Below, piece by piece: positions 6,946 to 64,000 of a DNA stretch of 64,000 nucleotides. The stretch lies in the NCBI GenBank assembly GCA_937926105.1, contig CALANS010000212.1:62001-126000 (forward strand), in the 5' to 3' direction. The DNA comes from an uncultured Actinomycetes bacterium (GTDB taxonomy: Bacteria > Actinomycetota > Actinomycetes > Mycobacteriales > Nakamurellaceae). The notes beneath the pieces are model-generated. The model did not search any database. It was not told where the DNA came from and was given only the letters and a program-made list of their open reading frames with translations. The translations under genes and the position numbers were made by a program. Within the stretch, counting starts at the first letter, position 1. Every line of letters begins with the position of its first letter.

Positions 6946-6986
6946 GTTAGCAAACTAGTTTCGTCGACGACCTCGGAAAGGGCGGC

Positions 6987-7751
6987 ATGGGACGGGCGGC
7001 GCGAGCCGATCAATGGCGATCGGTCTCAGGCGGTGACGACGGGTCCGGGGACCCCCGCGAGCGGTCGGGTGGCCGGGTTGGCGGCGACGGGCCGCCCGCG
7101 GCGACGCCCGATCGTGAGGGATCGGCCCAGGGAGCTCCCGGGTGGCAGGGCCTGGCGGCGGCACCGAGCTGGGTGCCGGCGGACCGGCCGCTGCGTGCCG
7201 ATGCGCGTCGCAATCGGGACGCGGTGCTCACCGCCGCCGCGGAGGCCTTCGCCACCCAGGGCGTCGAGGCTCCGCTGGAGGACATCGCCAGGACGGCCGG
7301 GGTGGGCGTCGGCACGCTGTACCGGCACTTCCCGAATCGGGAGGCGCTGGTGTTCGGCGTCTACGCGCGCGAGGTCGAGCAGCTGGCAGCCAGTGCGCCG
7401 GCGCTCGCGGCCGAGCGGGAACCCGCCGAGGCGTTGCGCGAGTGGATGCGGCGCTTCGTGCGCTATGCGGCGACCAAGCGGGGGCTCAAGGGCATGCTCC
7501 GCACCATGATGGACGATGACACCGACCTGTTCGACCGGACGAAGGAGCAGATCCGGCAGGCCGCCGAGCAGCTGCTGGGTGCCGCGGCCGATGCGGGCCA
7601 GATCCGCCGCGACATCACCGCAGAGGATCTGGTCCGGTCGATGGGCGGCATCTGCATGGCCGGCGGGCCGAGCGCCGAGCCCGAGTGCGCGGGGCGGCTG
7701 GTCGACCTGGTCTTCGACGGGCTGCGCTACGGCGCGCCGGCCGCGCGCTGA
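6987..7751 (+). CDS. TetR-family repressor of the divergent exporter
   Basis: A 254-residue regulator. The DNA-binding domain begins only near residue 72 (RNRDAVLTAAAEAFATQG...LEDIARTAGVGVGTLYRHFPNREALV), a classic TetR helix-turn-helix. The 70 or so residues before it are Gly/Arg/Pro-rich with no family match, so the true start may be further in, for example a GTG near residue 62. The C-terminal half is the helical ligand and dimer domain. The ATG at 6987 has GGAAAGGG just upstream. It most likely represses its own gene and the exporter through the repeats at 6916-6945. The inducer is unknown. Confidence 0.82.
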   Translation: MGRAARADQWRSVSGGDDGSGDPRERSGGRVGGDGPPAATPDREGSAQGAPGWQGLAAAPSWVPADRPLRADARRNRDAVLTAAAEAFATQGVEAPLEDIARTAGVGVGTLYRHFPNREALVFGVYAREVEQLAASAPALAAEREPAEALREWMRRFVRYAATKRGLKGMLRTMMDDDTDLFDRTKEQIRQAAEQLLGAAADAGQIRRDITAEDLVRSMGGICMAGGPSAEPECAGRLVDLVFDGLRYGAPAAR

Positions 7752-9801: not shown

Positions 9802-9875
9802 CCATCGGGGTGCAGGATTCGCTCTGACGATCGGAGTGAGCCTGCCACGACGGTGAGCATTCGAAGGGAGCAAGC

Positions 9876-10715
9876 GTGCCGATCCACCCCGCGGTCGTCG
9901 ACCGCGAGCTGCCGCCGGTACCGGCACCGTTGCCGGCGCCGGTGATCGACGCGCACACGCATCTGGATGCCTGTGGCGCCGACGATGCGGATGGCGTTGC
10001 CGCGGCAATGGGCCGCGCGGCGGAGGTCGGCGTCCGCGCGGCGATCACCGTCGGTGACGATCTGGCCTCCTGCCGCTGGGCGGTGCGGGCCACGTCATGG
10101 CACCCGGATCTGTTCGCGGCAGTGGCAATCCATCCCACTCACGCGGACGCACTGGATGCGTTGGCCCGGGCCGAACTCGAACAACTGGCCTGCACCGACC
10201 GGGTTGTCGCGATCGGCGAGACAGGCCTGGACTACTACTGGGACTCGGCGTCACACAGCGTGCAGGCCGAGGTATTCGCCTGGCACATCGATCTCGCCAA
10301 GCGCACCGGTAAGCCGCTGATGATCCACGACCGGCAGGCACACGAGGACATCCTGTCCATTTTGAAGTCCGAAGGTGCTCCGGAAACGGTTGTCTTCCAC
10401 TGCTTCTCGGGTGATGAGGCAATGGCTCGAGCGTGTGCGGACGCCGGTTATGTGATGTCGTTCGCGGGGGCGGTCAGCTTCACCAACGCGCGAGAACTGG
10501 CCGCCGCGGCCAAGACTGTGCCGGAGGACCTGATCCTGGTCGAGACCGACGCGCCATTCCTGACGCCGCATCCGTTCCGCGGCCGGCGCAATGAGCCGTT
10601 TGCGTTGCCCTACACCGTGCGTGCCCTGGCCGATATTCGCGGTGCGGACCTGGAATCGCTGTGCATTTCTGTGAGGCTGAACACCCTGCGTACCTACGGA
10701 TTACCCGTCAGCTGA
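9876..10715 (+). CDS. tatD: TatD-family metal-dependent hydrolase (DNase)
   Basis: A 279-residue TIM-barrel amidohydrolase relative; TatD enzymes are cytoplasmic 3'-5' DNases linked to DNA repair. Metal-binding signatures are complete: DAHTHLD on the first strand, AIGETGLDYYW with the bridging Glu, MIHDR, VFHCFSG, and ETDAPFLTPHP at the last strand. The GTG at 9876 is preceded by GAAGGGAG. The gene lies 74 bp after metG and is probably co-transcribed with it, as in mycobacteria. Confidence 0.92.
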   Translation: MPIHPAVVDRELPPVPAPLPAPVIDAHTHLDACGADDADGVAAAMGRAAEVGVRAAITVGDDLASCRWAVRATSWHPDLFAAVAIHPTHADALDALARAELEQLACTDRVVAIGETGLDYYWDSASHSVQAEVFAWHIDLAKRTGKPLMIHDRQAHEDILSILKSEGAPETVVFHCFSGDEAMARACADAGYVMSFAGAVSFTNARELAAAAKTVPEDLILVETDAPFLTPHPFRGRRNEPFALPYTVRALADIRGADLESLCISVRLNTLRTYGLPVS

Positions 10716-10780: not shown

Positions 10781-12799
<2,019 letters not shown>

Positions 12800-12906
12800 G
12801 TCGGACCCACGACCGGATCGCGCCGGAATGGCGCGGTCCCACTCGGCCACGAGCCCGCCCGATCGCATCGTCGGTCGGCCGGTGCGACGTGGGCGGGCGG
12901 TCCAGC

Positions 12907-13110
12907 TTGCCGATCCGTCACCGGTCCGTTACCCTCCCGTGATGTTGGCCGGGATGGGGAAGTCCCGGACGCGTCGGGGCAGTGGAGCATGGTTGCGCAC
13001 TCGCGGGCGCTCCGTCGCCGCTGCCCGCACTGAGGCCTTGCCTGCCGCCGGGTCTTGGGGTGCTCGCGTCCCGGATGCCGCTGCCCGGGTTCTGCGACCC
13101 TGGACGACCC
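12907..13110 (+). promoter_or_regulatory. Promoter and conserved structured leader of the second rpf gene
   Basis: TTGCCG (12907-12912), 17-bp spacer, TACCCT (12930-12935) gives an RNA start near 12942. From 12927 it repeats the leader of the first rpf. The first hairpin is CCGGGA/TCCCGG (12949-12954/12963-12968), with the last pair changed from G-C to A-T in step, a compensatory change that supports folding. GTCGGGGCAG is at 12973-12982 and CTGCCCGGGTTCTGCGAC at 13081-13098, 12 bases before the GTG. An ATG at 12942 opens a 95-codon frame (MLAGMGKSRTRR...) that runs out of phase into the rpf gene. About 130 bases upstream of this promoter (12800-12906) hold no gene. Confidence 0.6.
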
Positions 13111-14967
13111 GTGGCCCGACACTCCGCGACCGCCCCGCGCCCGGCGGCCCGACCGGCTTGGTCGGTGCTCGAACGTGCCGCTGCCTCCTCCGCTTCGGCT
13201 GCTTCGGCCGTGGTGGTCGATGCGGCTGACGCGCCGACCGCCTCGACCATCGCTTCGCAGGACACGCAGCTCGCCCCGATGGACGAGACGCCGCGACCGC
13301 TCGACACCGGCGGCCGGCTCGCCGGCACCGAGCAACCAGGTCCGGAGCGCCCGACTCGGATGGGCCGCAAGCGGGCTGAGCGTCGGCGGGGTCGAATCCT
13401 GGCCGCCGTCACGGTGGGCGCGCTCGTGGTGGGTCTGACCGCGGTGGGCGGCACCGTCGCCGCGATGGCCAAGACCGTCACCATCGCGGTGGACGGCGCC
13501 AGCCGGCAGGTGACCACCCTGTCCGGCACCGTGGCCGGCGCGCTATCCTCCGCGGGCCTGACGCTCGGCGCGCACGACAAACTCGCGCCCGCGGGTGGCA
13601 CGCCGATCGGTGACGGGTCCCAAATCGTGGTGCAGCGCGGCCGGTTGGTGACGGTCACCATCGACGGCACCTCGCAGCAGTTCTGGACCACCGCCACCAC
13701 CGTCGCCGGGGCGCTGGCACAGATCGGTCGCAATCCCTCCGACCTCAAGTTGTCGGCCAACCGGTCCAGGCAGATCCCGCTCGATGGCCTGACCCTGACC
13801 GCCCAGACATTGCACACCGTGATCCTCACCGACGCGGGCGGCGCGAGGGTCACGATCACCACGGCGGCAGCCACCGTCGGCGACCTGCTGCGCGAGCAAG
13901 GTATCGCCCTGACCGGCGACCAGGAGGTGTATCCCGCGCCCGGCACCGCCCTGACCGACGGCCTGACCATTGCGGTGCGCACGCTGCCCACGGTGACCCT
14001 GATCCGTGGGACCGACCGGCGGGACGTCGTGTCGGGTGCCGGCACGGTGGGTGAGCTGCTGGCCGCCCAGGGGATCACGCTGTCCGATAAGACCGTCGTC
14101 ACGCCATCGGCGGGGAGTCCGGTGACATCCGGCATGCAGGTGACGGTGACGACGCTGCCGAGCGTCAGCGTCGTGGACGGCACGGCGAAGGCGGTGACGG
14201 TGATCACCCGCCAGGACACCGTTGGCGACCTACTGGCCGCCCGGCACCTCACGCTGGGCAAGCACGACACCGTGAGCCCGAGCGCCGCGACGCCGCTGAC
14301 CGACGGTATGACCGTGGCGGTGACGCGCGTCTCGTACGCCACCACCACCAAGACGGTGACGGTTCCGCAGCCGGCCGATATCACCGAATACTCCGACACC
14401 CTCGAGCAGGGCACCCAGCAGGTCACCGCGGGGCATGTCGGCAGCCAGAAGGTGACCTACCGGGTCAAGACGGTCAATGGCAAGGCGGGCTCCCCGCAGG
14501 AGATCGACCGCGTGACGGTGCAGGATGCGGTCCCCACCGTCACCGTCATCGGGACCAAGGCGCCGCCGACGACGGCTCCCGCGTCGACATCGACCCCGAC
14601 GGCCTCGAGCCGCTCCGCGAAGTCGGCCGTCAGCACCTCGGCCAAGGCGCCCGCGACCATCACCTCGTCGGCTCCGAGCTCCGCCAGCAGCGTGGAATGG
14701 GTTGGCAACCAGGTCTTCTTCCACGACGTCAGCTACGGGGTGAACTGGGACGGTCTGGCGCACTGCGAGTCCACCAACAACCCGCGGGCCGTGGATCCCT
14801 CCGGCACGTACTTCGGCCTGTTCCAGTTCGACCTGTCCACGTGGGCGTCGGTGGGCGGCACCGGGAACCCGATCGACGCCAGCCCCGAGGAGCAGCTGCT
14901 GCGCGCCAAGCTGCTATATCAGGACCGCGGGCTGCAGCCGTGGGCGTGCGCCTGGGCGGCGGGCTGA
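13111..14967 (+). CDS. Second resuscitation-promoting factor, RpfB type
   Basis: A paralogue of the preceding gene. I choose the GTG at 13111 (618 residues) because it sits in the same place after the conserved leader; an ATG at 12982 would extend it but lies inside that leader. Layout: Ala/Ser-rich cytoplasmic tail, Arg-rich turn and one membrane helix (about 90-120), DUF348 repeats forming five or so modules, a G5 domain (VSYATTTKTVTVPQPAD onward), a Ser/Thr/Ala linker, then the Rpf domain with catalytic Glu553 in HCEST and the motif GLFQFDLSTWASVGG. It should cut peptidoglycan outside the cell. A tandem pair of long RpfB-type genes is unusual. Confidence 0.88.
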   Translation: MARHSATAPRPAARPAWSVLERAAASSASAASAVVVDAADAPTASTIASQDTQLAPMDETPRPLDTGGRLAGTEQPGPERPTRMGRKRAERRRGRILAAVTVGALVVGLTAVGGTVAAMAKTVTIAVDGASRQVTTLSGTVAGALSSAGLTLGAHDKLAPAGGTPIGDGSQIVVQRGRLVTVTIDGTSQQFWTTATTVAGALAQIGRNPSDLKLSANRSRQIPLDGLTLTAQTLHTVILTDAGGARVTITTAAATVGDLLREQGIALTGDQEVYPAPGTALTDGLTIAVRTLPTVTLIRGTDRRDVVSGAGTVGELLAAQGITLSDKTVVTPSAGSPVTSGMQVTVTTLPSVSVVDGTAKAVTVITRQDTVGDLLAARHLTLGKHDTVSPSAATPLTDGMTVAVTRVSYATTTKTVTVPQPADITEYSDTLEQGTQQVTAGHVGSQKVTYRVKTVNGKAGSPQEIDRVTVQDAVPTVTVIGTKAPPTTAPASTSTPTASSRSAKSAVSTSAKAPATITSSAPSSASSVEWVGNQVFFHDVSYGVNWDGLAHCESTNNPRAVDPSGTYFGLFQFDLSTWASVGGTGNPIDASPEEQLLRAKLLYQDRGLQPWACAWAAG

Positions 14968-52546: not shown

Positions 52547-55500
52547 TTAGCGACAGTCGGCCTCCCGGCGGAACCGGAACTCCACCAGCACGCTGCGCAG
52601 GTCGACCGCGCACACCGCCCGGTCGGCCAACGACAGCGATTTCAGCAGCGCCTCGGCATCCGACACGTCCCCACAGACCTCCGGCGTTCCCGGCACCGTC
52701 GTGCTCGTCGGAGGCAGCGCCGGGAAGCAGGAACCGTCCGGCAGCGGCACCTGCACTTGCACCGACAATCCGCCGGTCGGCTGCCCACCCGCGTACTGGG
52801 CGAGGTGCACCCATCTGTCCGGGCGCAGGCAGCCCTTGACCGTCACCGCCGTGTTGCTGGCCCCGCCGTCGCGCCGCTGCACCGATCCGGTCACGGTGCC
52901 CTGTAGCCGCCAGGTGTGCGCGTCCAGCGTCCCGACGAACCAGCCCATCAGATGCGACCCGTCGTGAGTGCGTGCCGCGAACCGGCCGGTGAAGCCGTCC
53001 GGGCCGAGCCGGCCGTCGGTGAGCAGCCCGTCGATGCTGCCCAGCCCATCGCCGGCGCTGCCACACACCCGGCCGTCGAACGGCTCCCGCAGCACTGTCT
53101 CTCCCGCAGGCGCCTGTATCGAAAGGTGCACCCGCCGGGTCTCGCCGGGCCCCAGCACCGTTCCACGCACGGGCTCGATCAACTCGGTCCGCCAACCCGC
53201 CGGCAGGGTGTCCGTCAGCCGCACGTCGACCGGCAGGGTCTCCCGGGAGTCGTTGCCGACTAGGAAGCCGAGCCGGAAACCGGAACCCGGGGAGTAGGGA
53301 GCGTAGGCAATGTTCGACTGCACCGTGTTGTTGGTCGGGTTGACATCGTCGATGGAGAACACCGTCGCCCGGATGCAGAAGTGGTCGACGGTCTCGCCGG
53401 CTTCCAGCGGCGGGATCCACCACTTGACCGAGGCGGACGCCGGCGGCGAGTCCTGCGCCGAATCGTCGAAGTTGGACGCCCCTGCGGCCAGATCGCCCAG
53501 GGCCAGGGTCTGGATATTGCCGTCCTTGTCGGTCATCGGCAGCCAGCCCGATCCACCCGAGGTGATCTTGGTGTACTCGAAGCTGACCTGGACGTTGCGA
53601 GCGGTGGCCGTCCCGACGTTGCGCACCCTGCAGTAGACGGTGTTCTCGTACTGGGTGGGGGTCCCGCCGTCCAGCACGTTGATCAGCGCGTTCCACTCGG
53701 ACGCACCGCCGTTGTTGATGAACAGATCCCGGGACGACCAATCCGGACTCGACAGGCCGACGAAGGGCCGGGACATCCACCAATCGGCGCCCCAGGTGGC
53801 GAAGGTGATGTCGGCGCCGTACGGAGCGTCGGTGGGCTGCAAACCCACCGCGTACCAGGCCAGCACGGTCGTGCGGTGTTGGACGGATCCGACGCCGTAC
53901 AGGTCGATGGCCGCGCTCACACAGGCGTTACGGATGGTGCGGAACACGTTCTCATCGTTGGCCGGCAGTCCGGTGGCGGCCCCGATGTTCGAGACGTAAT
54001 GGGTGAACGCTCGGTACCAGATCAGCGCGGCTACGTACACGTCCCGACCGCCGGAACTGGCGTTGCCCAGGCCCTTGACCGGGATCAACGCCGGGGTGCG
54101 GGACGCCCGCTGGTGGATGCCACCCTGCGCCATGAGATACGCAGCGTGCGCGAGAATGTCACCCCGGAAGTAGCGCGCCCCGGTGCCGGTCATGGTGTTC
54201 CGGTCGTCCCAGTGGTCGAACTTGGACGGGTCGGCGGCATTCGGGTCGCGGGGGAAGGCCAGGTTGCGGAAGATCTGCCCGGTGGGGGAGATGTCGGTGG
54301 CCATCCACCATTGCGTGGAGTACAGCCCGCCGAACACGTCGGAGGTGCCCTCGTGCACCGCGGCCAGCCAGTCGGTGTACGTCAGACCCGGATTGCCGGC
54401 GCCGTCCACGAACGAGTAGTCGGTGACGGCATGCTGATACTCGTGCCCCACCACGGCCTTCGAGCCGGCTAGGTAGTCGTAGGAGACCCAGCCGGAGGCG
54501 CCCGTGGGGTCGCCGTCGAAGAACGCCAGGTGCGCCACCCAGTGCCCGTTCACCAGCTCCTGGTCGAAGAAGGCATTGACCGACCGGGAGGTGCCCGCCG
54601 AGGTGTCGTAGGTGTGTGCCACCACGTTGAGCGTCTGATCCGGGACCAGCGGCGCGGAATACTGGCCGTCGTCCCAGCCGACTCGCCCGCCGAGCGCGCC
54701 GTAGAAGTCGTACAGGTCGGCCACGGTGGCGTGCTCGTCGACCTCCGGCTGCTGCGAGGAGGTGCGGTCGGCGTCGGAGGTGCTGGCTGCCACCCGGCTC
54801 CAGGTGTGGTCGCCATCGGTGTCCTCGGACACCGGAATGGTGCCGGCGTCGATCAGCGCCGGGATGTTCGGGTAGACCCAGCTGGAGTTGGCGTTGGCAT
54901 CGTAGGTGACGATCGGCCGGCCCCTGGTGGTGTTGCGCAGCCGGTAGGTCGATCCGCCATTGACCCGGACGATCTGCAGGGTCCGCGAGTCGAACGGGCC
55001 GCCGAGTGGAATCGTGGACAGACCGCTTCCGACGTCGGGGGTTTCGGCGCCCTTGCGGGTCGGGGCGAACAGGAACAGCTCACCCGATTCGGCGTCGAAG
55101 AACATCTGCCCGAACACCAAGGGTGCCTGCTCGTGCTCGGGCGCGGAGGCCGCCATGCCCAGGTGATAGCCCTCGGGGGCGACGTGGTAGCCGTGCGTGG
55201 CGTAGGTGTAGATCAGCCGGTCGCGCCACGGGTAGAGCACCAACCGGGGTTCGGCGGCCAGCGGGAACAGGGACTCCTTGCGCCGGCGGGCCAGCGCCCG
55301 CAACTCCTGGAAGTCGGGCCGGTCCGAGATGGATTCGGCTGCGATCTTGCGGATCTCGTCGGCGGTGACGGAGATCGTGTTGCCGGGCTCCAGGTCGCGC
55401 TGACAGCAGGACTGCACCTCGACCAGCCGGCCGCCCGGGCCGAAGTGCGCGGCAAGTTTGGCGCCGTACACCTCGATCCCTCGGCGGATGATCGCCGCCC

Positions 55501-55906
55501 ATTCTGCGTGGGTCTCGGCGCCGGAACCGCCCTTGGCGGTGCGTGACCGCCTGGTCCGGCCTGTTCCCTCGACCTCGCCGGGCCCGGCGACTGGCGGCGT
55601 CTCGGGTGGGGGAGCGTATTGCTGGAACACCTGGTGGACGAAGCCGATCGAGTCGGTGCGCTCGGATTGCGGCCGCAGAGTGTCCAGCACGTTGTCCCCG
55701 CCGAACAGCCCGGGGTAGCGCGTCAGGAATGCGCGCAGCACGTCCCCGCGTGGCTCCCCGGCGACGGCCCCGGGGACGGCGGCGACGAGGTCGTCGGCTC
55801 GGGCGAAGGACAGTACGCCGCGCTCGGCGTCCCATTCCCGGGTGAAATTGTCGCTGACGGACTCCAACTGGCGCAGCACATCTCGCTGCCCCGACGTCAT
55901 GTCCAT
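52547..55906 (-). CDS. Large M4-like (thermolysin-fold) metallopeptidase with C-terminal CARDB-type domains
   Basis: A 1119-residue protein. The zinc motif HEYQH is at 488-492 (VVGHEYQHAVTDYS) and the third ligand Glu519 is in AVHEGTSDVFGGLY, as in M4 peptidases; RGDILAHAAYLMAQGG supplies the later His. An N-terminal FTP-like region precedes the catalytic domain. After about 720 come Asn/Thr-rich strands such as ENTVYCRVRNVGTATARNVQVSFEYTK, typical of CARDB adhesion-like domains, and a Cys-containing C-terminus. No Sec or Tat signal peptide is visible at the N-terminus (MDMTSGQRDVLRQLES), which is odd for this family. It may exit by a specialised route or start elsewhere. Confidence 0.78.
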   Translation of the reverse strand: MDMTSGQRDVLRQLESVSDNFTREWDAERGVLSFARADDLVAAVPGAVAGEPRGDVLRAFLTRYPGLFGGDNVLDTLRPQSERTDSIGFVHQVFQQYAPPPETPPVAGPGEVEGTGRTRRSRTAKGGSGAETHAEWAAIIRRGIEVYGAKLAAHFGPGGRLVEVQSCCQRDLEPGNTISVTADEIRKIAAESISDRPDFQELRALARRRKESLFPLAAEPRLVLYPWRDRLIYTYATHGYHVAPEGYHLGMAASAPEHEQAPLVFGQMFFDAESGELFLFAPTRKGAETPDVGSGLSTIPLGGPFDSRTLQIVRVNGGSTYRLRNTTRGRPIVTYDANANSSWVYPNIPALIDAGTIPVSEDTDGDHTWSRVAASTSDADRTSSQQPEVDEHATVADLYDFYGALGGRVGWDDGQYSAPLVPDQTLNVVAHTYDTSAGTSRSVNAFFDQELVNGHWVAHLAFFDGDPTGASGWVSYDYLAGSKAVVGHEYQHAVTDYSFVDGAGNPGLTYTDWLAAVHEGTSDVFGGLYSTQWWMATDISPTGQIFRNLAFPRDPNAADPSKFDHWDDRNTMTGTGARYFRGDILAHAAYLMAQGGIHQRASRTPALIPVKGLGNASSGGRDVYVAALIWYRAFTHYVSNIGAATGLPANDENVFRTIRNACVSAAIDLYGVGSVQHRTTVLAWYAVGLQPTDAPYGADITFATWGADWWMSRPFVGLSSPDWSSRDLFINNGGASEWNALINVLDGGTPTQYENTVYCRVRNVGTATARNVQVSFEYTKITSGGSGWLPMTDKDGNIQTLALGDLAAGASNFDDSAQDSPPASASVKWWIPPLEAGETVDHFCIRATVFSIDDVNPTNNTVQSNIAYAPYSPGSGFRLGFLVGNDSRETLPVDVRLTDTLPAGWRTELIEPVRGTVLGPGETRRVHLSIQAPAGETVLREPFDGRVCGSAGDGLGSIDGLLTDGRLGPDGFTGRFAARTHDGSHLMGWFVGTLDAHTWRLQGTVTGSVQRRDGGASNTAVTVKGCLRPDRWVHLAQYAGGQPTGGLSVQVQVPLPDGSCFPALPPTSTTVPGTPEVCGDVSDAEALLKSLSLADRAVCAVDLRSVLVEFRFRREADCR

Positions 55907-56158: not shown

Positions 56159-56602
56159 GTGAACGAGGTGCGGGAGATGCGCCTGGCCGCTGGACTAACC
56201 CAGGCCGGATTGACCGAGCGCTCGGGGGTGGCACAGCCCAATCTCGCCGCCTACGAGAGTGGTCGACGTCGGCCCTCCGCCACGATGCTTGCCCGATTAC
56301 AGGAGGCGGCCCCTCCGCGACCATCCGTGGTACTCGCGCGGCATCGGGATGAGATCGTCGAACTGGCGCACCGGCATGGCGCCGAGGATGTACGCGTGTT
56401 CGGGTCGGTGGCACGTGGAGCGGACGTCTCGGGTCATGGCCTGGACCTGCTAGTCCGGTTCGATGAGGACGCCGACCTGTACGACCTAGCCGATTTGGTC
56501 GCTGCGCTGGAGGAACTCACCGATCTGTCAGTGAATGTTGTGTCCGACGGCGGGATCCCTCCCGGTGCCCACCCGGTTCGCGACGAAGCCGTGCGGATAT
56601 GA
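56159..56602 (+). CDS. HTH-fused MNT-type nucleotidyltransferase antitoxin
   Basis: 147 residues. The N-terminal XRE helix-turn-helix spans about 3-50 (REMRLAAGLTQAGLTERSGVAQPNLAAYESGRRRPS). A minimal nucleotidyltransferase follows: VRVFGSVARGADVSGHGLDLLVRF. The GSxxRG loop is intact, but the usual Ser-Asp-x-Asp reads HGLD, so the first metal-binding Asp is Gly94 and catalysis is doubtful. MntA antitoxins AMPylate their HEPN partner; this one may act by binding or as a DNA-binding autorepressor. It overlaps the toxin gene by 4 bp (ATGA). Confidence 0.8.
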   Translation: MNEVREMRLAAGLTQAGLTERSGVAQPNLAAYESGRRRPSATMLARLQEAAPPRPSVVLARHRDEIVELAHRHGAEDVRVFGSVARGADVSGHGLDLLVRFDEDADLYDLADLVAALEELTDLSVNVVSDGGIPPGAHPVRDEAVRI

Positions 56603-56961
56603 AGGACGACTCTGTCGAGAACTGGGTGCGTCAGAATCTCTACGCGCTGCTGGCCTACACCCGCACTGCGGACCGCATCGTTGAGGAGGGCAGCGCTCAC
56701 TACATGCTCGACGAGTCATCCCAGATGCTGGCCGAATTGGTGCTGCGCAAGGTCGGTGATGCTGCGGCACGCCTTCCAGCGGAGTTCACCGACGCGCACC
56801 CGGAAGTACCGTGGCGTGCCATGATCCAGGCCCGTGAGGTCTTGGCACGTCATCCAGGCCGGATCGACCCCGTGCTCTTGTGGAACACCCTGTCACACAA
56901 GCTGCCCGGCGCCGTGGCACAGGTGCGCGCGATCCTGGCGGAGTTGATTGCGGGCACGTGA
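56599..56961 (+). CDS. HEPN-domain toxin (DUF86/HepT type)
   Basis: A 120-residue all-helical protein. HEPN toxins are RNases that use an Arg-x4-6-His motif. Here it reads R79-EVLAR-H85 (AREVLARHPGRID), an x5 spacing, and the downstream DPVLLWNTL stretch is typical of DUF86. Paired with the preceding MNT gene it forms a HEPN-MNT toxin-antitoxin system. RNase activity is inferred. Confidence 0.78.
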   Translation: MKDDSVENWVRQNLYALLAYTRTADRIVEEGSAHYMLDESSQMLAELVLRKVGDAAARLPAEFTDAHPEVPWRAMIQAREVLARHPGRIDPVLLWNTLSHKLPGAVAQVRAILAELIAGT

Positions 56962-57035
56962 CCTTGTCGTGCTACAAGCGGAGAATGTGTGGTGAAATTG
57001 CACAATCTGCGCGTCCGACGTGCTGGAATATCCCG

Positions 57036-57947
57036 ATGTACAACAGTGATCCCGGCGGTGCCGGTCGCCGCGGTGCGATGCTCCGGCGACGGGGGCAGGC
57101 GACTGCTCGGACGGCGGTCGCGGTGGCGATGGTGGTGGCCGCGGTGCTGCTCCCCGGTCGGGCGGCAGCCGCCCCGGCCGCCGGTGCTGCCCTGGGCGCT
57201 GCGGTCGCCTCCTCGGACGCCGCCGGCTCGGCCTCCTCGTCACCGCCCTCTTCGTCACCGCCCCCCTCGACGGCCGGCAAGACCACCCTGCCGGCCGGAT
57301 CGCTGGTACGCACCGGTGGTTTCGAGCCGCCCGATGTCGAGAAGGTCTCCGGCTTCGACACCTACACCGCCGCCGACCACCCGAAGCTCGGCGCCTGGAC
57401 TATCACAGCCGGCAGTGTCGACCTCATCGGCGCCGGCTGGGAGGACGCCGCCGAGGGCGCGCAGTACATCGACCTGAACGGCAACGACGGTGACGGCACT
57501 GCCGCGACCCTCACCCAGACCCTCCACACGACGCAGGGCCGTCGCTATCGGCTGGACTTTCTGCTGGCCGGAAACCCACACGGTGACCCGCCGGTCAAAC
57601 ACCTGGAGGTGAATCTCGGAACGGTCACGAAGTCGTTCACCACCGACGAGGCGAGCGGCGACACACTCAACTGGCACCCCGCCAGCATGGAGGCCGACGC
57701 CTGCTCCTCATCGAGCATGGAGCTGACGTTCATCAGTAAGACCAAGGGCCAGCGTGGACCCCTGATCGACGGGGTGGCCGTGGTGGATGCCGGCTCGGCC
57801 GCCTGCGGCGGGGCGGGCGCTGCCCTGTGGCAGGTGCTGTTGTTGTCCGGGCTGGGCGTCTTCTGGGTAGCTGCGATGGCGGCGCTGGGCCTGGCGGTGC
57901 TGCGGCGCACCGGGCGCGCTCGCCCGGCGGGAGTGCCGGCACACTGA
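57036..57947 (+). CDS. Exported, membrane-anchored choice-of-anchor/DUF642-like protein
   Basis: About 303 residues from the ATG at 57036; the start is uncertain. An Arg-rich N-terminus and hydrophobic segment (TAVAVAMVVAAVLLPGRAAAAPAAG) act as signal peptide. A Ser/Pro linker follows, then a galactose-binding-like beta domain: VRTGGFEPPDV, GAWTITAGSVDLIGAGWEDAAEGAQYIDLNGNDGDGTAATLTQTL, YRLDFLLAGNPH and GPLIDGVAVVDA. Near the C-terminus a membrane helix (VLLLSGLGVFWVAAMAALGLAVL) and an Arg-rich tail anchor it. It probably binds a surface carbohydrate. It is unrelated to the toxin-antitoxin pair before it. Confidence 0.72.
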   Translation: MYNSDPGGAGRRGAMLRRRGQATARTAVAVAMVVAAVLLPGRAAAAPAAGAALGAAVASSDAAGSASSSPPSSSPPPSTAGKTTLPAGSLVRTGGFEPPDVEKVSGFDTYTAADHPKLGAWTITAGSVDLIGAGWEDAAEGAQYIDLNGNDGDGTAATLTQTLHTTQGRRYRLDFLLAGNPHGDPPVKHLEVNLGTVTKSFTTDEASGDTLNWHPASMEADACSSSSMELTFISKTKGQRGPLIDGVAVVDAGSAACGGAGAALWQVLLLSGLGVFWVAAMAALGLAVLRRTGRARPAGVPAH

Positions 57948-57968
57948 CCGGCGGCAGCGCGCCGGGGC

Positions 57969-58025
57969 ACCGCGGTCGGGTCAGTCCCGGGTGAGCGACA
58001 CCGTGACCGTGAACGGGTGGTCGGT
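57969..58025. repeat. 57-bp direct repeat, copy 1 (C-terminal scrap of an exterior-domain gene)
   Basis: Matches 59465-59521 in 55 of 57 bases. On the minus strand it encodes TDHPFTVTVSLTRD and a stop, the C-terminus of the protein at 59477. Similarity ends abruptly at 58025, so only a tail remains. Confidence 0.85.
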
Positions 58026-58048
58026 CGGCGGTGCTGCGAGCAGTCACC

Positions 58049-58102
58049 TCGGCAATACTTCAGAGATACTTTCGGCAATACTTCAGTCTACGGCTCGGCA
58101 AT
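58049..58102 (+). repeat. Three direct repeats at 23-bp intervals upstream of the ATPase gene
   Basis: TCGGCAAT recurs at 58049, 58072 and 58095; the first two extend to TCGGCAATACTTCAG. The regular 23-bp (about two helical turns) spacing and the position just before a TAGCAT -10 element (58118) suggest a binding site for a regulator, possibly autoregulation of the ATPase. Confidence 0.55.
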
Positions 58103-58129
58103 CTTACGGTCAGGGTGTAGCATCGGGTC

Positions 58130-59389
58130 GTGACCGCCGCGATTGCCCGCATCCCGCGTCGGATTCGTCCAGTGGCGGTGTCGCGTATGAGCAGCGTCCC
58201 TGTGCTCCTATTGGAAGGGCCTCGAAGTGTCGGGAAGTCGACGCTTCTCGCCGAACTAGCGGCACAGTCCGCGGTCGAAGTCTTCGATTTCGACCAGGAG
58301 GACACTCTCCAGGTCGCGCGGAGCAATCCGACACTGCTCGCCGACAGAGACATCCCAATCTTCATCGATGAGTACCAGAAGGAGCCCCGGAGCCTGAACT
58401 GGATCAAGGCGAGGCTGAATCGTGGTACGCAATTTGGAATGTTCGTTCTCGCCGGGTCCGCCAGCTTCGACTCGCTGCCAAGCGGGATTCAGTCGCTCAC
58501 CGGACGGCTCCTCCGGCTGCCGGTCTTGCCCTTCGCCCAAACTGAGATCGACGGGACTGACAACCACTTTCTTGAGCAGGTCCTGGACGGTGACATCCCA
58601 CACTCGGCAGCCTCGGCGGCGACCGGCCGTACCGAGTACATCAACCGCGTCGTTCGAGGCGGAATGCCGCTCGCGCTCGCTCAGCCCGACGACCAGAGCC
58701 GTCGGCGCTGGTTCCGCGCCCAGATCCGCCAGGCACTCGATCGAGATGCTGGCGAGTTGCGCCGAATCGCGCAGCGGGCGCCGCTTCCGCAGACCCTGGA
58801 TCGCCTGGTCGGCCAGACCGGGAGCCTGCTGTCAATTCAGCAGGTCGCCAGTGATGTTGCCATCGCCCACGAAACCGCCCGCGGATACCTTCATCTCCTC
58901 GAGTCGCTATTCCTGGTCAGCACACTCCCGGCATGGCGGACGACGGCTCTGTCGCGGAGCGTCGCGACTCCAAAGGTTCATGTCGTCGACTCCGGTCTCG
59001 GGGCCCACCTGCTGAACATCAATCGAGCCAAGCTCGATCGCCTTGAGCCGTCCGCCATGACCGAGTTCGGGCACCTGCTGGAATCATTCGTTGTCCAGGA
59101 GATCCTGCGTCAGGTGTCGTGGTTCGACGGGAACCTCACTGTTGGACACTGGCGCACTCGTGACAACGACGAAGTCGACCTCATCGTCGAGCGGGAGGAT
59201 GGCGGGGTCGTCGCGTTCGAGGTGGAGGCCGCAGATCACATCGAGCCGCGGTGGCTCAGTCCGCTGCGGAAACTCCGTGGCAAGCTCGGCGATCGATTTG
59301 TGGCAGGCATTGCGTTCCATCTCGGTGCCCGCGGCTACCGCGCGGAGGACCGTATTCACGTGCTGCCACTCGAACGGCTGTGGACGTGA
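58130..59389 (+). CDS. AAA-family ATPase with DUF4143 domain
   Basis: A 419-residue protein. N-terminal P-loop ATPase: Walker A LEGPRSVGKST, Walker B IPIFIDEYQ and sensor LAGSAS. A winged-helix region follows (SIQQVASDVAIAHETARGYLHLLESLFLVSTLPAW). The C-terminal DUF4143 part has DSGLGAHLL and a PD-(D/E)xK-like DNDEVDLIVEREDGGVVAFEVEAAD. Such ATPases are common, mobile and poorly understood, and some are linked to defence. The GTG at 58130 is 6 bases after a TAGCAT hexamer, so leaderless translation is likely. Codon use is less GC-biased than in neighbours. It sits between 57-bp repeats. Confidence 0.8.
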   Translation: MTAAIARIPRRIRPVAVSRMSSVPVLLLEGPRSVGKSTLLAELAAQSAVEVFDFDQEDTLQVARSNPTLLADRDIPIFIDEYQKEPRSLNWIKARLNRGTQFGMFVLAGSASFDSLPSGIQSLTGRLLRLPVLPFAQTEIDGTDNHFLEQVLDGDIPHSAASAATGRTEYINRVVRGGMPLALAQPDDQSRRRWFRAQIRQALDRDAGELRRIAQRAPLPQTLDRLVGQTGSLLSIQQVASDVAIAHETARGYLHLLESLFLVSTLPAWRTTALSRSVATPKVHVVDSGLGAHLLNINRAKLDRLEPSAMTEFGHLLESFVVQEILRQVSWFDGNLTVGHWRTRDNDEVDLIVEREDGGVVAFEVEAADHIEPRWLSPLRKLRGKLGDRFVAGIAFHLGARGYRAEDRIHVLPLERLWT

Positions 59390-59464
59390 GGGACGGTCCG
59401 GCAATCGGCCATCGCCGGAGCGACACCGCGGATACCGAACGCAACGGCCAGCTGGAGCCGGGGT

Positions 59465-59521
59465 ACCGCGGTCGGGTCAGTCCCGGGTGAGCGACACCGT
59501 GATCGGGAACGGGTGGTCGGT
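59465..59521. repeat. 57-bp direct repeat, copy 2
   Basis: Partner of 57969-58025 with two mismatches. It includes the last 14 codons and stop of the minus-strand gene 59477-60121. The two copies flank the ATPase gene, as expected if that gene was inserted with duplication of its target, or if a paralogue was deleted. Confidence 0.85.
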
Positions 59522-60121
59522 GCTGGCCAGCGTGCCGGTTCCGGAGAGCGCATCGCCGTCCATCGTGAGCGCCAGCACGACCTGGGTGTCGGTCTGCACC
59601 TGCAGCGCCGAGCCGGTCAGCGTGCCGGTGACGTCGCCGGCCGGCACCCAGTCGCCGCTGTCCGGGTCGGCGAACAGCAACTGACCGGTGACGGCGCCCG
59701 GATCGCCGCCCAGCGTGATCCGGGCATTCACCGGATCCCCGCCGCCGTCGACTTTCCCGGTCCAGGACCCGATCAGCGTGGTACCGGACTCCGAGGACGG
59801 CGTCGTCTCCGGGGCACCCGGCGCGGCCGTTGTCGGGCCGCCGCCGGGACTCGGCGAGGTGGTGCTGGCCGCCGCGGTGGTCGGGCCGGCGCCCGACGAC
59901 GACCCTGCTGCCGGCGCCTGCGGACTGGACCGTCCGTCGGCCGCGTCACCGCCGGCCCTCGCGCCGAGGTTGACCGCCACGATGCCGCCGACCAACGCCA
60001 GGGAGGCGACCCCAGCGGCGATCGCCGCGGGCTTGACCCGATCGGGCGCGGGTGTGGCGTCGGGCGCGGATGCCGGTGGCGGGGTGGTCCCGGCGGGCGG
60101 CACGTGTGGGGTCTCAGACAT
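59477..60121 (-). CDS. Single-pass membrane protein with exterior beta domain (module gene 3, copy A)
   Basis: A 214-residue protein: a Pro-rich cytoplasmic tail, one membrane helix (AAIAAGVASLALVGGIVAVNLGA), a Ser/Thr/Ala/Gly linker of about 60 residues, and a C-terminal beta-rich domain (GSWTGKVDGGGDPVNARITLGGDPGAVTGQLLFADPDSGDWVPAGDVTGTLTGSALQV...MDGDALSGTGTL). I recognise no named family. The start ATG at 60121 overlaps the MauE-type gene by 8 bp (ATGTCTGA). The paralogue at 61984 has the same layout and overlap. A function in the cell envelope is inferred. Confidence 0.7.
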   Translation of the reverse strand: MSETPHVPPAGTTPPPASAPDATPAPDRVKPAAIAAGVASLALVGGIVAVNLGARAGGDAADGRSSPQAPAAGSSSGAGPTTAAASTTSPSPGGGPTTAAPGAPETTPSSESGTTLIGSWTGKVDGGGDPVNARITLGGDPGAVTGQLLFADPDSGDWVPAGDVTGTLTGSALQVQTDTQVVLALTMDGDALSGTGTLASTDHPFPITVSLTRD

Positions 60122-61172
60122 GGTGCGCGACTCCTTCGGTGACGGCATGTGGCAGCACGGCGCGCTGGTCCAGGAAGCGCCGGATCTCGGTGGTGCCGGT
60201 CAGCACACCACCGACCGGCCGCAGTGCCGCGTCCAGCAGGACCGCGGAGGGGAAGGCCTGGACGCCGGCCGATGCGGCGATCCGGCCGCCGTCCGCGTAC
60301 ACGGCAAGCCCGTCCCCGGGGCCGGTCGCCAGCCCGGCATCGACGCGGTCGATCACGCCCAGCACGGACAGTCCCGGCGGCGGTGGCGAGGTGCGGATTC
60401 TCTCGCGCAGCCGCTCGCAGGCGCTGCACTGCGCGGACATCAACACCAGCAGCGTCGGCCCCGGCCGGCCGGCGACCTCCCCGGCGACTTCCGTGAGTGG
60501 CACCGTCGTGCCGTCCCGGTCCATCACCGTCGCCGTCGTCACCGCCGCCTGCAGCGAGGCCATGTCGACCGCCGGGCCCACTGCCGGCCGCCCGGTCGCC
60601 GGCACCCGCCCCAGCGCCCCCTCCAGGTCGCGCACCCGACCGGCCAACGCACCGACCGTCCTGCTCATGGCGTGGATCAGCAGGGCGCCGACGGCGACCG
60701 CCGTCAACACCGCGAGCCCGCCGACGATCGCGACCGCTCGAGCGCCCGCCGCGTCGTAGCAGCCCGCGCCGCACCGACCCGGCAGCGATGCCGCCACCAG
60801 CACCGCGACCGATGCCGCCAGCAGGACGCCGTTGCGCACCAGGGTCGACGGCCCGATCGGTTCCGCGGCGGACAGGGCGCCGAAGCAGGCACACGCCGGG
60901 CGGCGGCCGCGAATCAGATTGCCGGCCACCAGCGCGGTGAAGGTCGCCATCAGCGCCGTCGCAGCCGTCCCGCCCGCCAGCACCGTCGGGGTGACAACCA
61001 ACAGCGCGGCGACAGCGAGTTCGGCGGCGGGCAGCAGCACCGCGACAACCGGCGCCAGCGCCGACGGCACGCCCAGCTCCCGCGCGGCAGCCCCGGTGCG
61101 GCGCGGCGCGATCGCCTTGGTGAGGGCGCTGACGACGAACACCGCGGCCAGGATCAGCCGGACGGCGAGCAT
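60114..61172 (-). CDS. MauE-type membrane protein fused to a thioredoxin-like domain (module gene 2, copy A)
   Basis: 352 residues. The N-terminal half is a MauE/DoxX-like bundle of helices (MLAVRLILAAVFVVSALTKAIAP..., AARELGVP, RPACACFGALS with a Cys-x-Cys, then GRCGAGCYD). MauE proteins act with MauD in disulfide-dependent maturation of methylamine dehydrogenase. After a coiled linker (RDLEGALGR) comes a thioredoxin-like domain with LLVLMSAQCSACERLRERI (CSAC redox pair) and GVQAFPSAVLLD. A thiol-disulfide role at the membrane is likely. It follows the Cys-rich gene by 17 bp and overlaps the next gene by 8. Confidence 0.78.
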   Translation of the reverse strand: MLAVRLILAAVFVVSALTKAIAPRRTGAAARELGVPSALAPVVAVLLPAAELAVAALLVVTPTVLAGGTAATALMATFTALVAGNLIRGRRPACACFGALSAAEPIGPSTLVRNGVLLAASVAVLVAASLPGRCGAGCYDAAGARAVAIVGGLAVLTAVAVGALLIHAMSRTVGALAGRVRDLEGALGRVPATGRPAVGPAVDMASLQAAVTTATVMDRDGTTVPLTEVAGEVAGRPGPTLLVLMSAQCSACERLRERIRTSPPPPGLSVLGVIDRVDAGLATGPGDGLAVYADGGRIAASAGVQAFPSAVLLDAALRPVGGVLTGTTEIRRFLDQRAVLPHAVTEGVAHHV

Positions 61173-61189
61173 TCGTCACCGCCGCCGGT

Positions 61190-61858
61190 CTAGGTGCCGC
61201 ACTTGCCCTCCGGTGGTGGGCCGCACAGGTTCTGCCCGGTCACGCCCAGACCGCTCGGGCACACCTGCAGGCAGGCGCTGGCCGAATACCAGCACGAGTC
61301 GTCCGGCTGGCAGTAGGCGACGTTCTGCAGGCGGCAGCAGTCGCAGTCCTCCTCCTGCGCCTCGTTGTAGGGGTCGCCGCCGAACTGGTCCACGGCGATG
61401 CCGTAGAGCGTCGCGATCGTCTCGCACGCGGCCCGCCGGGTGGGGCTGTCCGGGTAGGCGTCGCCGCAGGCGTTCATCGCCTCTCGGGCGAGATTCAGGT
61501 CGCAGTCGGACTTGTTGGCACCGCAGGTGCCGTAGCAGACGTCGTGCTTGTTGCAGGACGGCGTGAAGTTCGCCCGGCCCCAGTGATCCCGGACTGCCTT
61601 GTTCTTCCAGCCGCTGGGTCCACAGCCGTTCGTGGTCGGGGTGTGGCCGTCGTGGTGGCGGATCTTCGCGCAGGTGCTGAGGTCGCTCGCCGGGAACTGC
61701 CAAAAGCAGGTCGGCTCGTCGGCCGCGGCCTGCGGAGCCAGCGCGGCTCCGGTGACGAACATCGCCGCCGCTCCGGTGGCCAACCGGAGGAATCCGCGTC
61801 GGGACGGCTGGCGGGTGTAGTCCACCAGTGCGCCCTCGAAGTCGTGATGCTTGAACAT
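61190..61858 (-). CDS. Tat-exported Cys-rich phospholipase-A2-like protein (module gene 1, copy A)
   Basis: About 222 residues from the ATG at 61858. The twin-Arg signal SRRGFLRLATGAAAMF has Arg20 and Arg21, with probable cleavage after the Ala-rich stretch near 47. The mature part is Cys-rich (about 16). SCNKHDVCYGTCGANKSDCD at 101-120 resembles the Ca-binding and His105-Asp106 active-site region of secreted phospholipase A2. The C-terminus, with the Cys-rich motif CPSGLGVTGQNLCGPPPEGKC, is shared with the paralogue at 63726. Phospholipase activity is a hypothesis. Many disulfides would suit the MauE-thioredoxin partner encoded next. Confidence 0.72.
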   Translation of the reverse strand: MFKHHDFEGALVDYTRQPSRRGFLRLATGAAAMFVTGAALAPQAAADEPTCFWQFPASDLSTCAKIRHHDGHTPTTNGCGPSGWKNKAVRDHWGRANFTPSCNKHDVCYGTCGANKSDCDLNLAREAMNACGDAYPDSPTRRAACETIATLYGIAVDQFGGDPYNEAQEEDCDCCRLQNVAYCQPDDSCWYSASACLQVCPSGLGVTGQNLCGPPPEGKCGT

Positions 61859-61983
61859 TGAGGCGGATCGTACAAAGTACATGCCGTTCTTGTCCCGAGT
61901 TCGCCCCAAATTCTGGGCGGACGGAACCGGGTTCCCCCCGGCAACGGTGCCCGGCCGGGCGCTGGGACGGGCCTGGTTCTGGC

Positions 61984-62691
61984 TCAGCCGCGGGCCAACG
62001 TGACGGTGATGGGCAGCGGCTCGGTCATGCCGGGCAGCGTCCCGGTGCCGGTCATCGCCTGCCGATCAATGGTCAAGTCGAGCGCGATATCGGTGACGGC
62101 GGGCTGCGGGCTGTCCGTCGAACCTGCGGGTGGCGGATCCTGCGGGGCGGTGCGCAGGGTCAGTGCCCGGTCGTCCAGCGAGCCGGTGAGCGCGCCGGCG
62201 ATGGCCCAGCCCTCGGAATCCGTGCCGGGATCACCGAACATCAGCTGGCCGGTGACGGCGGATCCCCGGGGCGTCTGCAGGATCAGGCGGGTGCGCACCG
62301 GGGTGCCGCCGCCGTCGACGGTGCCGGTCCACTCGCCGCTGACCTCATCGGGCGTGGGAGCACGGCTGGTGGGGTCGTCCCCGGGGCTGCTGGCCGGGTC
62401 GCCGGTGGCACCGACCGAGGTGGTGACCGGCGCCCCGGCGGAACCGGTCGTTGCGAACGGGCCACCGAGCGGGGGTGTGAGCGACCGGCCGGCCGTCTCG
62501 GTGCCGTCGGAGGCGAGGATCACCCCGACGATGCCGCCGGCCAGCGCAACGCTGGACACGCCGGCGAGGACCGCAGCCGACCGCACCGAGGACGACTCGG
62601 GAGCACCGGCAGCACCGAGGGCACCGGAACCGCCCGGGGTCTGGGGGATGTCGTGCGGTGGTGCGGGAGGTGGACGGTCGTGGTCAGACAT
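61984..62691 (-). CDS. Single-pass membrane protein with exterior beta domain (module gene 3, copy B)
   Basis: A 235-residue paralogue of the gene at 59477: Pro-rich tail, helix AAVLAGVSSVALAGGIVGVILA, Thr/Ser/Pro linker, then SGEWTGTVDGGGTPVRTRLILQTPRGSAVTGQLMFGDPGTDSEGWAIAGALTGSLDDRALTLRT and an end PLPITVTLARG that matches the copy A ending. The start ATG at 62691 overlaps the upstream gene by the same 8 bases (ATGTCTGA). No family name recognised. Confidence 0.7.
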   Translation of the reverse strand: MSDHDRPPPAPPHDIPQTPGGSGALGAAGAPESSSVRSAAVLAGVSSVALAGGIVGVILASDGTETAGRSLTPPLGGPFATTGSAGAPVTTSVGATGDPASSPGDDPTSRAPTPDEVSGEWTGTVDGGGTPVRTRLILQTPRGSAVTGQLMFGDPGTDSEGWAIAGALTGSLDDRALTLRTAPQDPPPAGSTDSPQPAVTDIALDLTIDRQAMTGTGTLPGMTEPLPITVTLARG

Positions 62692-63703
62692 GGCTGGGCG
62701 CCTCCGTGTACTCGGTCAGGTAGCGAAGGATGGCCGTCGATCCGATCATCGTCTCTCCGGTGCCGCGCAGGTCGCGATCCACCTCGAGCGCCGTCGGGAA
62801 CGCGCGTACCCCGCCGGCCGCGGCCAGGTCGCCGCGGTCGCGGTAGATCCGCAGACCAGGCCCGGCGGAAGGTAGTTCGAGGCGGTCGAACCCTTCGACC
62901 AGCGAGACGACCTGCAGGCCGGGGGGCGGCGCCATGCCGGCCAGATGTTCGCGCACCCGGGAGCAGGCGCTGCACCCCGACGACATCAATACCAGCAGGG
63001 TGCGATCGGCGTCGGCGACCAGATCGGCCAGCCGATGCGGCGCGCCACCGCGATCGGTGACGGCCAGCTCGGTCGCGGCGCGCAGCATCATCGGGACGTC
63101 CGGCCCCGGATGACCGTCACCGGCCCCGCCGCCGGAGCGGCCGAGCGCCGCCTCCAGGTCGCGGACCCGGCCGGTGAGCTGACCGACCAGCCGACTCAAC
63201 GTCACCACCAACACCAGCCCGGCGCCGATCGCGATCAGCACCAGTACGCCAGCGCCGACCGTGAGGTGCCGGGCACCGGACGCGTCATAGCATCCGGCCG
63301 CGCAGCCGTGCGGCAGCAGCGACGATGCCAGCACCGCGAGCGATCCGGCCAGCAGCACCAGGTTCCGCACCAGCGTCCGGCCGCTGATCGCCGCACCCGC
63401 CGACAGCTCGCCGAAGCAGGCGCACGCCGGGTGCCGCCCGCGGGCCAGGTTCACCGCCACCAGCACCGTGAAGGCCAGCATCAGTGCGCTCGCAGCGGCC
63501 GACGCCGGGGTGGCCCAGTCGGTCACCGTCAGTGATCCGGCCACCGCGATCTCCGCCAGCGGCAGCACTATGGCGATGGGGGTGGCCAGCCGCGCCGGTA
63601 CACCCAGCTCGCGGGCCGCGACGGCGGTGCCGCGCGGGCTCATCAGCTTCGCGATCCCGCTGACCGCGAAGACCACGGCCAGCAGCAGCCGGACAGCCAG
63701 CAT
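62684..63703 (-). CDS. MauE-thioredoxin-like membrane protein (module gene 2, copy B)
   Basis: A 339-residue paralogue of 60114-61172. Start ATG 63703 (MLAVRLLLAVVFAVSGIAKLMSPRG) aligns with copy A. It keeps HPACACFGELS, HGCAAGCYDASGAR, the coiled linker RDLEAALGR and the thioredoxin CSAC pair (LLVLMSSGCSACSRVREHL), then GVRAFPTALEVD. The same redox-partner role is proposed. It lies 22 bp downstream of the Cys-rich gene. Confidence 0.78.
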   Translation of the reverse strand: MLAVRLLLAVVFAVSGIAKLMSPRGTAVAARELGVPARLATPIAIVLPLAEIAVAGSLTVTDWATPASAAASALMLAFTVLVAVNLARGRHPACACFGELSAGAAISGRTLVRNLVLLAGSLAVLASSLLPHGCAAGCYDASGARHLTVGAGVLVLIAIGAGLVLVVTLSRLVGQLTGRVRDLEAALGRSGGGAGDGHPGPDVPMMLRAATELAVTDRGGAPHRLADLVADADRTLLVLMSSGCSACSRVREHLAGMAPPPGLQVVSLVEGFDRLELPSAGPGLRIYRDRGDLAAAGGVRAFPTALEVDRDLRGTGETMIGSTAILRYLTEYTEAPSHV

Positions 63704-63725
63704 CCTCAGCCCCCCCGTGTCGGTG

Positions 63726-64000
63726 TCACGTCTCGCAGCGACCTTCCGGCGGGGGTCCACACAGGGTCTGCCCGGTCACTCCGAGCCCGCTGGGGCACAC
63801 GTCCAGGCAGTCCACGGCGGTGTCGTGGCAGGAGTCGAGCGGGCCGCACCACACCTGCTGCACCGGATGGCAGCACTCGCAGGCCTCCTTCTGGCCGGCG
63901 TCGAACGCCCCGGCGCCGCCGGCCAGCACGGCTGCCCGGTAGGCGTTCGCGACCGCGATGCAGGCCGCCAGACGAGCGTTCGGGCCCGGGAAGCCGCCGT
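63726..64000 (-). CDS. Cys-rich phospholipase-A2-like protein, C-terminal part (module gene 1, copy B)
   Basis: Only the last 90 or so codons are in the window; the gene runs off the right edge. The frame reads GGFPGPNARLAACIAVANAYRAA, then ECCHPVQQVWCGPLDSCHDTAVDCLDVCPSGLGVTGQTLCGPPPEGRC, matching the C-terminus of copy A (CPSGLGVTGQNLCGPPPEGKC). The presumed Tat signal and HD active-site region would lie beyond 64000. Confidence 0.72.
   Translation of the reverse strand, partial: GGFPGPNARLAACIAVANAYRAAVLAGGAGAFDAGQKEACECCHPVQQVWCGPLDSCHDTAVDCLDVCPSGLGVTGQTLCGPPPEGRCET

Follow-up and report, generated by a model that had tools for sequence, protein, structure and literature searches.

Two copies of a gene module pairing a predicted exported phospholipase A2 with a MauE-thioredoxin protein in an uncultured actinomycete

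Two related three-gene modules, in the same order and both on the minus strand, were detected by an open reading frame (ORF) survey of a 64,000-nt stretch of contig CALANS010000212.1 from an uncultured Actinomycetes bacterium (this whole stretch is below called the window). Module B occupied 59477–61858 and module A 61984–64000 (Table 1). Gene 1 is a predicted exported, disulfide-rich phospholipase A2 (PLA2), gene 2 encodes a MauE helix bundle joined to a thioredoxin-like (Trx) domain, and gene 3 a protein with one helix and a beta domain. The partnership of genes 1 and 2 rests on sequence families, conserved residues and recurrent linkage. We read the module as a client-dedicated disulfide-forming system of the mau kind, and on balance it seems probable that in each module gene 2 would be a disulfide-forming enzyme dedicated to the exported gene 1 product, by the steps set out below. 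Genes were taken as stop-to-stop frames; a simple gene caller overlooked real genes.

An earlier interpretation made from the letters of the window alone (the sequence-only reading) had noted the same three genes twice, in one order and strand, with an identical 8-bp overlap between genes 2 and 3. Both points were borne out: the overlap was ATGTCTGA in both modules, and the A and B proteins were 47% (gene 1, E 1e-54), 48% (gene 2, E 9e-83) and 40% (gene 3, E 1e-29) identical, indicating that the duplication was neither a chance resemblance nor recent. As the 5′ part of gene 1A lay beyond the window end, a database protein of 197 aa (P0007) sharing its final 90 residues stood for it in this comparison. 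When 11 gene 1 proteins were placed on a tree, 1B grouped with P0001 and P0002 (support 100/100); gene 1A fell outside the group of 1B and P0001–P0004, with a support (92/99) below the tool's star and on long branches, to be taken with caution. Modules A and B are old paralogues, predicted to make different PLA2 variants.

Gene 1B matched the group XII PLA2 family PF06951 at 44.5 bits (curated cut-off 34), and relatives at two loci described below scored 51.8 bits (L031) and 31.2 bits (L001, below the cut-off). The dyad residues H105 and D106 and a second Asp, D120, were invariant in 15/15 aligned proteins and lined up with those of solved PLA2s, supporting the PLA2 fold and HD dyad that had been proposed. 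Gene 1 shared the NGCG loop, the HD-x-CY helix, the second Asp and the Cys pattern with group XII secreted PLA2s (PF06951) and prokaryotic PLA2s (PF09056; 1faz, 4aup and 7ygk), but unlike them it carried a twin-arginine translocation (Tat) signal and an additional C-terminal tail rich in Cys. The Tat signal, part of the original proposal, was recovered in gene 1B with TIGR01409 (17.2 bits, cut-off 16.7), and its estimate of about 16 Cys was corrected to 18, the first at residue 51. No match of gene 1B to the methylamine dehydrogenase (MADH) light chain model TIGR02659 was obtained at E 0.1. The Cys-rich tail was present in both window copies, in the relatives at L001 and L031, and in P0001–P0006 and P0008; in all four cases where the neighbourhood was known (both window modules, L001 and L031), the tail-bearing gene adjoined a MauE-Trx gene. 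Gene 1 relatives were absent from a search of viral_contigs, leaving a virus origin unsupported.

The MauE family PF07291 was matched by both copies of gene 2 (88.1 bits for 2B and 89 bits for 2A, cut-off 27). Hydropathy gave five helices, and the Cys motifs recognized were a CxCFG pair, another pair (C134 and C138) and a CxxC, the Cys residues of 2A being at 94, 96, 134, 138, 244 and 247; the CxCFG was kept in 13/13 aligned MauE-Trx proteins. The C-terminal domain was assigned as thioredoxin-like because of its CxxC and because a profile of four sequences (both window copies plus those of L001 and L031) matched solved thioredoxin/ResA-like proteins (best 2l5o, E 3e-6; ResA 4nmu, E 2e-4). Of the MauE plus CSAC thioredoxin first proposed, the MauE part was thus confirmed, and the thioredoxin part was supported by the four-sequence profile and weakly by single proteins. 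The MauD equivalog model TIGR02661 gave 12.7 bits for 2A (cut-off 188.6) and no match for 2B.

The gene pair recurs in two distant genomes, found among 20 loci with gene 1 relatives in a search of genome_contigs. In Geodermatophilus amargosae (L001), a PLA2 gene (7986–8681) was followed by an overlapping MauE-Trx gene (8618–9667). In genome G618 (L031), a MauE-Trx-Trx gene (5373–6749) lay upstream of the PLA2 gene (6742–7524), the two sharing the 8 nt ATGGCTGA; a third gene began at 7521, on the PLA2 stop. MauE was present at only these two of 25 PLA2-type loci scanned (L001–L020 and L031–L035, some on short contigs and many not actinobacterial), both with the C-terminal Cys tail. It was not found at three further PLA2 loci (L122–L124), nor was a gene 2 match found in the 1.5-kb flanks of the PLA2 genes of L024 and L027. 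PLA2 relatives occurred in at least 6 of 249 genomes (E 1e-5), at least 4 of 396 (E 1e-5) and at least 4 of 218 (E 1e-8); these counts are lower bounds, as the samples overlap and only the best candidates per genome were scored. The best full-length MetG match to the window organism among 197 genomes of its class was 73% identical (partial pieces up to 80%), and no PLA2 match was found in the sole sampled genome of the family of that best match.

To describe what MauE-Trx adjoins elsewhere, wide stretches around 57 MauE-seeded loci were taken (20, 17 and 20 from the top of three match lists, lower matches being left out). Besides the window, L001 and L031, 11 of these loci had MauE together with a thioredoxin CxxC; L183 and L187 (second part DsbA-like by eye) and L184 (parts in separate frames) were kept outside the 11. 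A Cys-rich protein was adjacent or fused to MauE-Trx in 6/11. The neighbour was a 228-aa gene with 44 Cys at L037 (no leader seen, near a contig end) and a 300-aa gene with 47 Cys and a twin-arginine leader at L120, where the MauE part lay in two frames. At L076, L171, L172 and L121, MauE-Trx ran in one frame into a twin-arginine (RR) stretch and a Cys-rich domain; the first three, related to each other and from three genomes, would represent an oxidase and its client fused in nature, provided that the frame is not divided by an internal start. Split arrangements were seen at L079, L081, L134 and L135, with MauE, then a separate MauD-like gene, then a Tat Cys-rich protein of about 460–500 aa. 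Of the MauD-like proteins one was scanned, that of L079; it scored 78 bits (E 5e-22) with TIGR02661, below the cut-off of 188.6, and the Tat proteins of L079, L081 and L135 weakly matched the MADH light chain model TIGR02659, below its cut-off (E 3e-6, 7e-5 and 0.02). At L067 a MauE gene truncated by the contig end followed a Cys-rich frame (300 aa, 39 Cys) with a Tat leader. One protein (L066:5371–6888) combined MauE, AhpC/TSA and PqqD, a possible thiol enzyme linked to ribosomally synthesized and post-translationally modified peptides (RiPPs).

Which side of the membrane the Trx domain faces was approached through charged residues. In 13/13 MauE-Trx proteins, Lys and Arg clustered in three segments: loop 1 (sum 43), loop 3 (46) and the stretch of 25 residues that follows helix 5 (45). 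Few were found in the N-terminus (0), in loop 2 (8) or in loop 4 (11), which are shorter segments. By the positive-inside rule, this pattern would put the N-terminus on the outer side and the Trx domain on the cytoplasmic side. Lys/Arg numbered 0, 0, 0 and 1 before and within the helix, and 3, 3, 2 and 2 in the next 20 residues, in the MauD-like proteins of L079, L081, L135 and L134, the starts chosen for the first three overlapping the MauE stop. In the four one-frame proteins no helix was found between helix 5 and the RR stretch, so that the Cys-rich domain could lie outside with the RR inside only if the Trx domain were inside; the hydrophobicity of their RR stretches was 1.5 to 2.0, versus 1.7 for the gene 1B leader (15-residue means). 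The three lines together suggest that the Trx domain lies on the cytoplasmic side, and this placement suggests oxidation before Tat export. An export-and-oxidative-folding cassette had been envisaged from the start; the idea is supported, but the distribution of charges favours thioredoxin chemistry on the cytoplasmic face over chemistry outside.

Tat exports folded proteins, yet a chain that needs nine or more disulfides would not be expected to fold under the reducing conditions of the cytoplasm. We propose that gene 2, a putative fusion of MauE with a MauD/ResA-like Trx domain dedicated to gene 1, would take electrons from client thiols with its CxxC and hand them on, through the CxC in the MauE bundle, to quinone. 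The client would be folded and oxidised at the inner membrane face, beside a cytoplasmic Trx domain, and then exported folded by Tat. Gene 3, a predicted one-helix anchor with its barrel outside, may bind or retain the exported enzyme or its lipid product. More tentatively, and short of calling it probable, the proposal may be extended to MauE/MauD-type enzymes in general, fused or split, as cytoplasm-facing quinone-linked thiol oxidases that would introduce disulfides into cognate Cys-rich Tat clients before export, with PLA2, Cys-rich repeat proteins and amine-dehydrogenase-like light chains as alternative clients. Such enzymes would be a natural counterpart of an engineered strategy in E. 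coli, in which disulfide formation in an oxidising cytoplasm is coupled to Tat export (PMC6350376, in the parts available).

A number of observations weigh against this interpretation. Taken singly, the window proteins barely reached the Pfam thioredoxin models (Thioredoxin_2, E 0.27 for 2B; none for 2A). A twin arginine was not seen in the Geodermatophilus PLA2, and a profile search did not detect gene 3 near the PLA2/MauE genes of L001 and L031; conservation outside the window, sought since the sequence-only reading, was found for the gene 1/gene 2 pair and not for the full trio. Five of the 11 MauE-Trx proteins had no Cys-rich partner in reach (L066, which carries PqqD instead; L119, where the contig ends; and L169, L170 and L173). 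The enrichment of Tat-leader Cys-rich frames near MauE, counted by a uniform script in the 57 loci, was modest: 12 within 2 kb (265 kb) versus 4 further away (331 kb), binomial p 0.013, with a leader criterion loosened relative to an exploratory count after L081 had escaped it. On later inspection one near frame (L185) and three far ones (L133, L172 and L178) looked non-coding; the exploratory count (10 near, 1 far) took in PLA2-chosen loci. Helix positions came from simple hydropathy on gene 2B, transferred by alignment, while L001 and L031 alone gave fewer than five hydropathy peaks, and loops 2 and 4 have fewer residues than the other two loops. At L134 the start of the MauD-like gene was picked from an alignment and follows an Arg-rich open frame. 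The one-frame proteins could prove to be two genes in frame if they contain an internal start, and ResA, among the best solved relatives of the Trx domain, works outside.

The same module could operate with its Trx domain outside and the client oxidised after export, as is usually supposed for MauD and MauE in MADH. We hold this to be a plausible though somewhat doubtful alternative: the Trx domain is related to ResA, and that of L031 to MauD, ResA and TlpA-type models, but the positive residues lie in loops 1 and 3 and after helix 5 in all 13 proteins and follow the helix in the four MauD-like proteins (one start uncertain), and in the one-frame fusions the RR would then end up outside, with the Cys-rich domain on the cytoplasmic side. 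A role of MauE in disulfide formation of the MADH beta subunit, compatible with oxidation outside, is described as speculated in the parts of PMC7794033 available, where the function of MauD is called unclear.

Gene 2 might also work in the opposite sense, as a reductase or isomerase sending electrons toward the client and repairing wrong disulfides, or in another thiol-based modification like that of RiPP clusters. CxxC thioredoxin domains serve either electron direction, the MauE-AhpC/TSA protein of L066 carries a PqqD domain, and candidate RiPP clusters contain MauE and MauD (PMC7794033, in the parts available); but no DsbD-type or modifying-enzyme family was found among the scanned module proteins and the clients are rich in Cys (gene 1B has 18, and the genes adjoining MauE-Trx at L037 and L120 have 44 and 47), which makes this very unlikely in our view. 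We regard it as unlikely, though less so, that the gene 1 product is secreted as a lytic or interbacterial enzyme, with gene 3 as immunity or tethering protein and MauE-Trx as folding helper, a proposal compatible with a dedicated oxidase acting before export. PLA2 activity would attack membranes, gene 1 is duplicated and diverged, and gene 3 was duplicated with it and overlaps gene 2. Set against this, no delivery or toxin family was met in ten window proteins scanned (52.5–64 kb), a helix-turn-helix (HTH)/HepT pair apart, and gene 3 went undetected at the other two PLA2/MauE loci.

The sequence-only reading knew of no described system with this content; the module does, however, resemble a fused MauE/MauD. 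As in the mau operon, MauE (PF07291) and a CxxC thioredoxin-like domain stand beside a Tat-signal Cys-rich protein. Unlike there, MauE and Trx form one chain, the client is a PLA2 and not a tryptophan tryptophylquinone (TTQ) light chain, and TIGR02661 scores are far below cut-off. Streptomyces candidate RiPP clusters with MauE, one of them with MauD, have a predicted precursor with at least 8 Cys, according to the parts of PMC7794033 available, whereas here the client is a 222-aa folded enzyme, in a module that showed no RiPP enzyme. Actinobacterial polytopic Rieske proteins insert their first helices by Sec and the last, RR-bearing helix by Tat, with export of a folded domain (PMC7317946, in the parts available). 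The four one-frame MauE-Trx-RR-Cys-rich proteins have the same layout, but in the Rieske protein folding inside is due to the Fe-S cluster and not to disulfides, and there is no oxidase part (same source and parts). Among the open-licence PubMed Central papers listed by searches on MauE/MauD with Tat, disulfides or Cys-rich proteins, the pairing appeared only in PMC7794033 (PMC9140248 has neither gene name as a whole word), and among those listed on group XII or bacterial PLA2s, one of them on a different bacterial PLA2 (PMC11525133), no PLA2 was linked with MauE. As far as this literature goes, the PLA2 client, the MauE-Trx fusion and the evidence for a cytoplasm-facing Trx domain are new; MauE/MauD with a Cys-rich Tat client was already known from methylamine dehydrogenase and had been noticed in the Streptomyces clusters.

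If MauE and MauD do oxidise Tat clients before export, this would answer how disulfide-rich proteins pass Tat, give the two proteins a general job beyond methylamine metabolism, and make one-protein oxidase modules candidates for producing disulfide-rich proteins. A genetic context is also given to some bacterial group XII-type PLA2 genes.

Gene 3 was supported as a single-pass protein with a beta domain, as had been suggested: 3B has one helix followed by a predicted 8-strand barrel. Fold searches returned many barrels at similar score, with avidin/calycin-like barrels and those of the quinohemoprotein amine dehydrogenase (QHNDH) alpha domain among those compared, so no family is claimed. Four database relatives were found, their genomic context not being known. 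An ORF of L001 directly after gene 2 (9689–10024) looked gene 3-like by eye and is not claimed (hhalign P 0.083); with 1000 shuffles each, its local score was reached 32 times for 3B and 567 times for 3A, and in the gene 3 profile search of the collected loci it gave nothing above threshold.

Table 1. Modules A and B and adjoining features of the window
Feature	Position	Strand	Basis or remark
Gene 1A, 3′ part, group XII-type PLA2-like Cys-rich protein	63726..63998	-	last 90 residues = end of P0007
Gene 2A, MauE (CxCFG) and C-terminal thioredoxin-like domain with CxxC, 339 aa	62684..63703	-	PF07291 E 4e-25; family profile
Gene 3A, N-terminal-region helix, Ser/Thr/Pro linker, beta domain, 235 aa, no Cys	61984..62691	-	
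Gene 1B, Tat signal, group XII-type PLA2 domain, C-terminal Cys-rich tail, 222 aa	61190..61858	-	PF06951, TIGR01409
Gene 2B, MauE and thioredoxin-like domain, 352 aa	60114..61172	-	PF07291 E 8e-25
Gene 3B, one helix (32-50), linker, predicted 8-strand barrel (118-213), 214 aa	59477..60121	-	
8-nt overlap ATGTCTGA	genes 2B/3B 60114..60121; genes 2A/3A 62684..62691	-	identical in both modules
65-nt direct repeat copy: 3′ end of gene 3B (45 coding nt) and 20 nt downstream	59457..59521	-	
65-nt direct repeat, other copy (scrap)	57961..58025	-	
AAA_14/DUF4143 ATPase gene, probable insertion	58130..59389	+	PF13635 E 5e-35, PF13173 E 5e-18
DUF642 protein, signal region and C-terminal helix, convergent with module B	56880..57947	+	PF04862 E 4e-11

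A scrap at 57979–58025 had been taken for a third remnant of gene 3. The sequence is real, but it looks like one copy of a direct repeat around an inserted gene, which fits it better than a third module. The two copies were 95.4% identical over 65 nt (E 4e-25) and bracketed a 1.43-kb stretch with the AAA_14/DUF4143 gene, on the strand opposite to the modules; at 63.7%, the G+C content of this gene was below that of genes 2B and 3B (75%) and of the window as a whole (67.7%). A third module remnant was rejected, region 57941–58129 matching only itself and the gene 3B end within the window.

The DUF642 gene is a possible fourth component of the module, the domain being rare among the genomes sampled. 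The third gene of the G618 operon also contained DUF642 (E 3e-10), plus PD40 and Ig-like parts, and the DUF642 proteins of the window and G618 were 35% identical (E 3e-25). DUF642 was above cut-off in 2/79 genomes of the G618 order, one being G618 itself, and gave no match in 81 genomes of the order of G001 (the L001 genome, included in the search), a result that does not prove absence. A DUF642 contig of genome G788 (L189) contained no convincing relative of genes 1–3.

Elsewhere in the window, an HTH and nucleotidyltransferase gene was followed by a HepT-like gene (56159–56961), which we take to be a probable MNT/HepT toxin-antitoxin pair. A large thermolysin-family (M4) metallopeptidase with an NPCBM-associated domain was encoded at 52547–55906. 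Near metG (11000–14967) lay two tandem genes that, judged by eye, presumably encode resuscitation-promoting-factor-type proteins.

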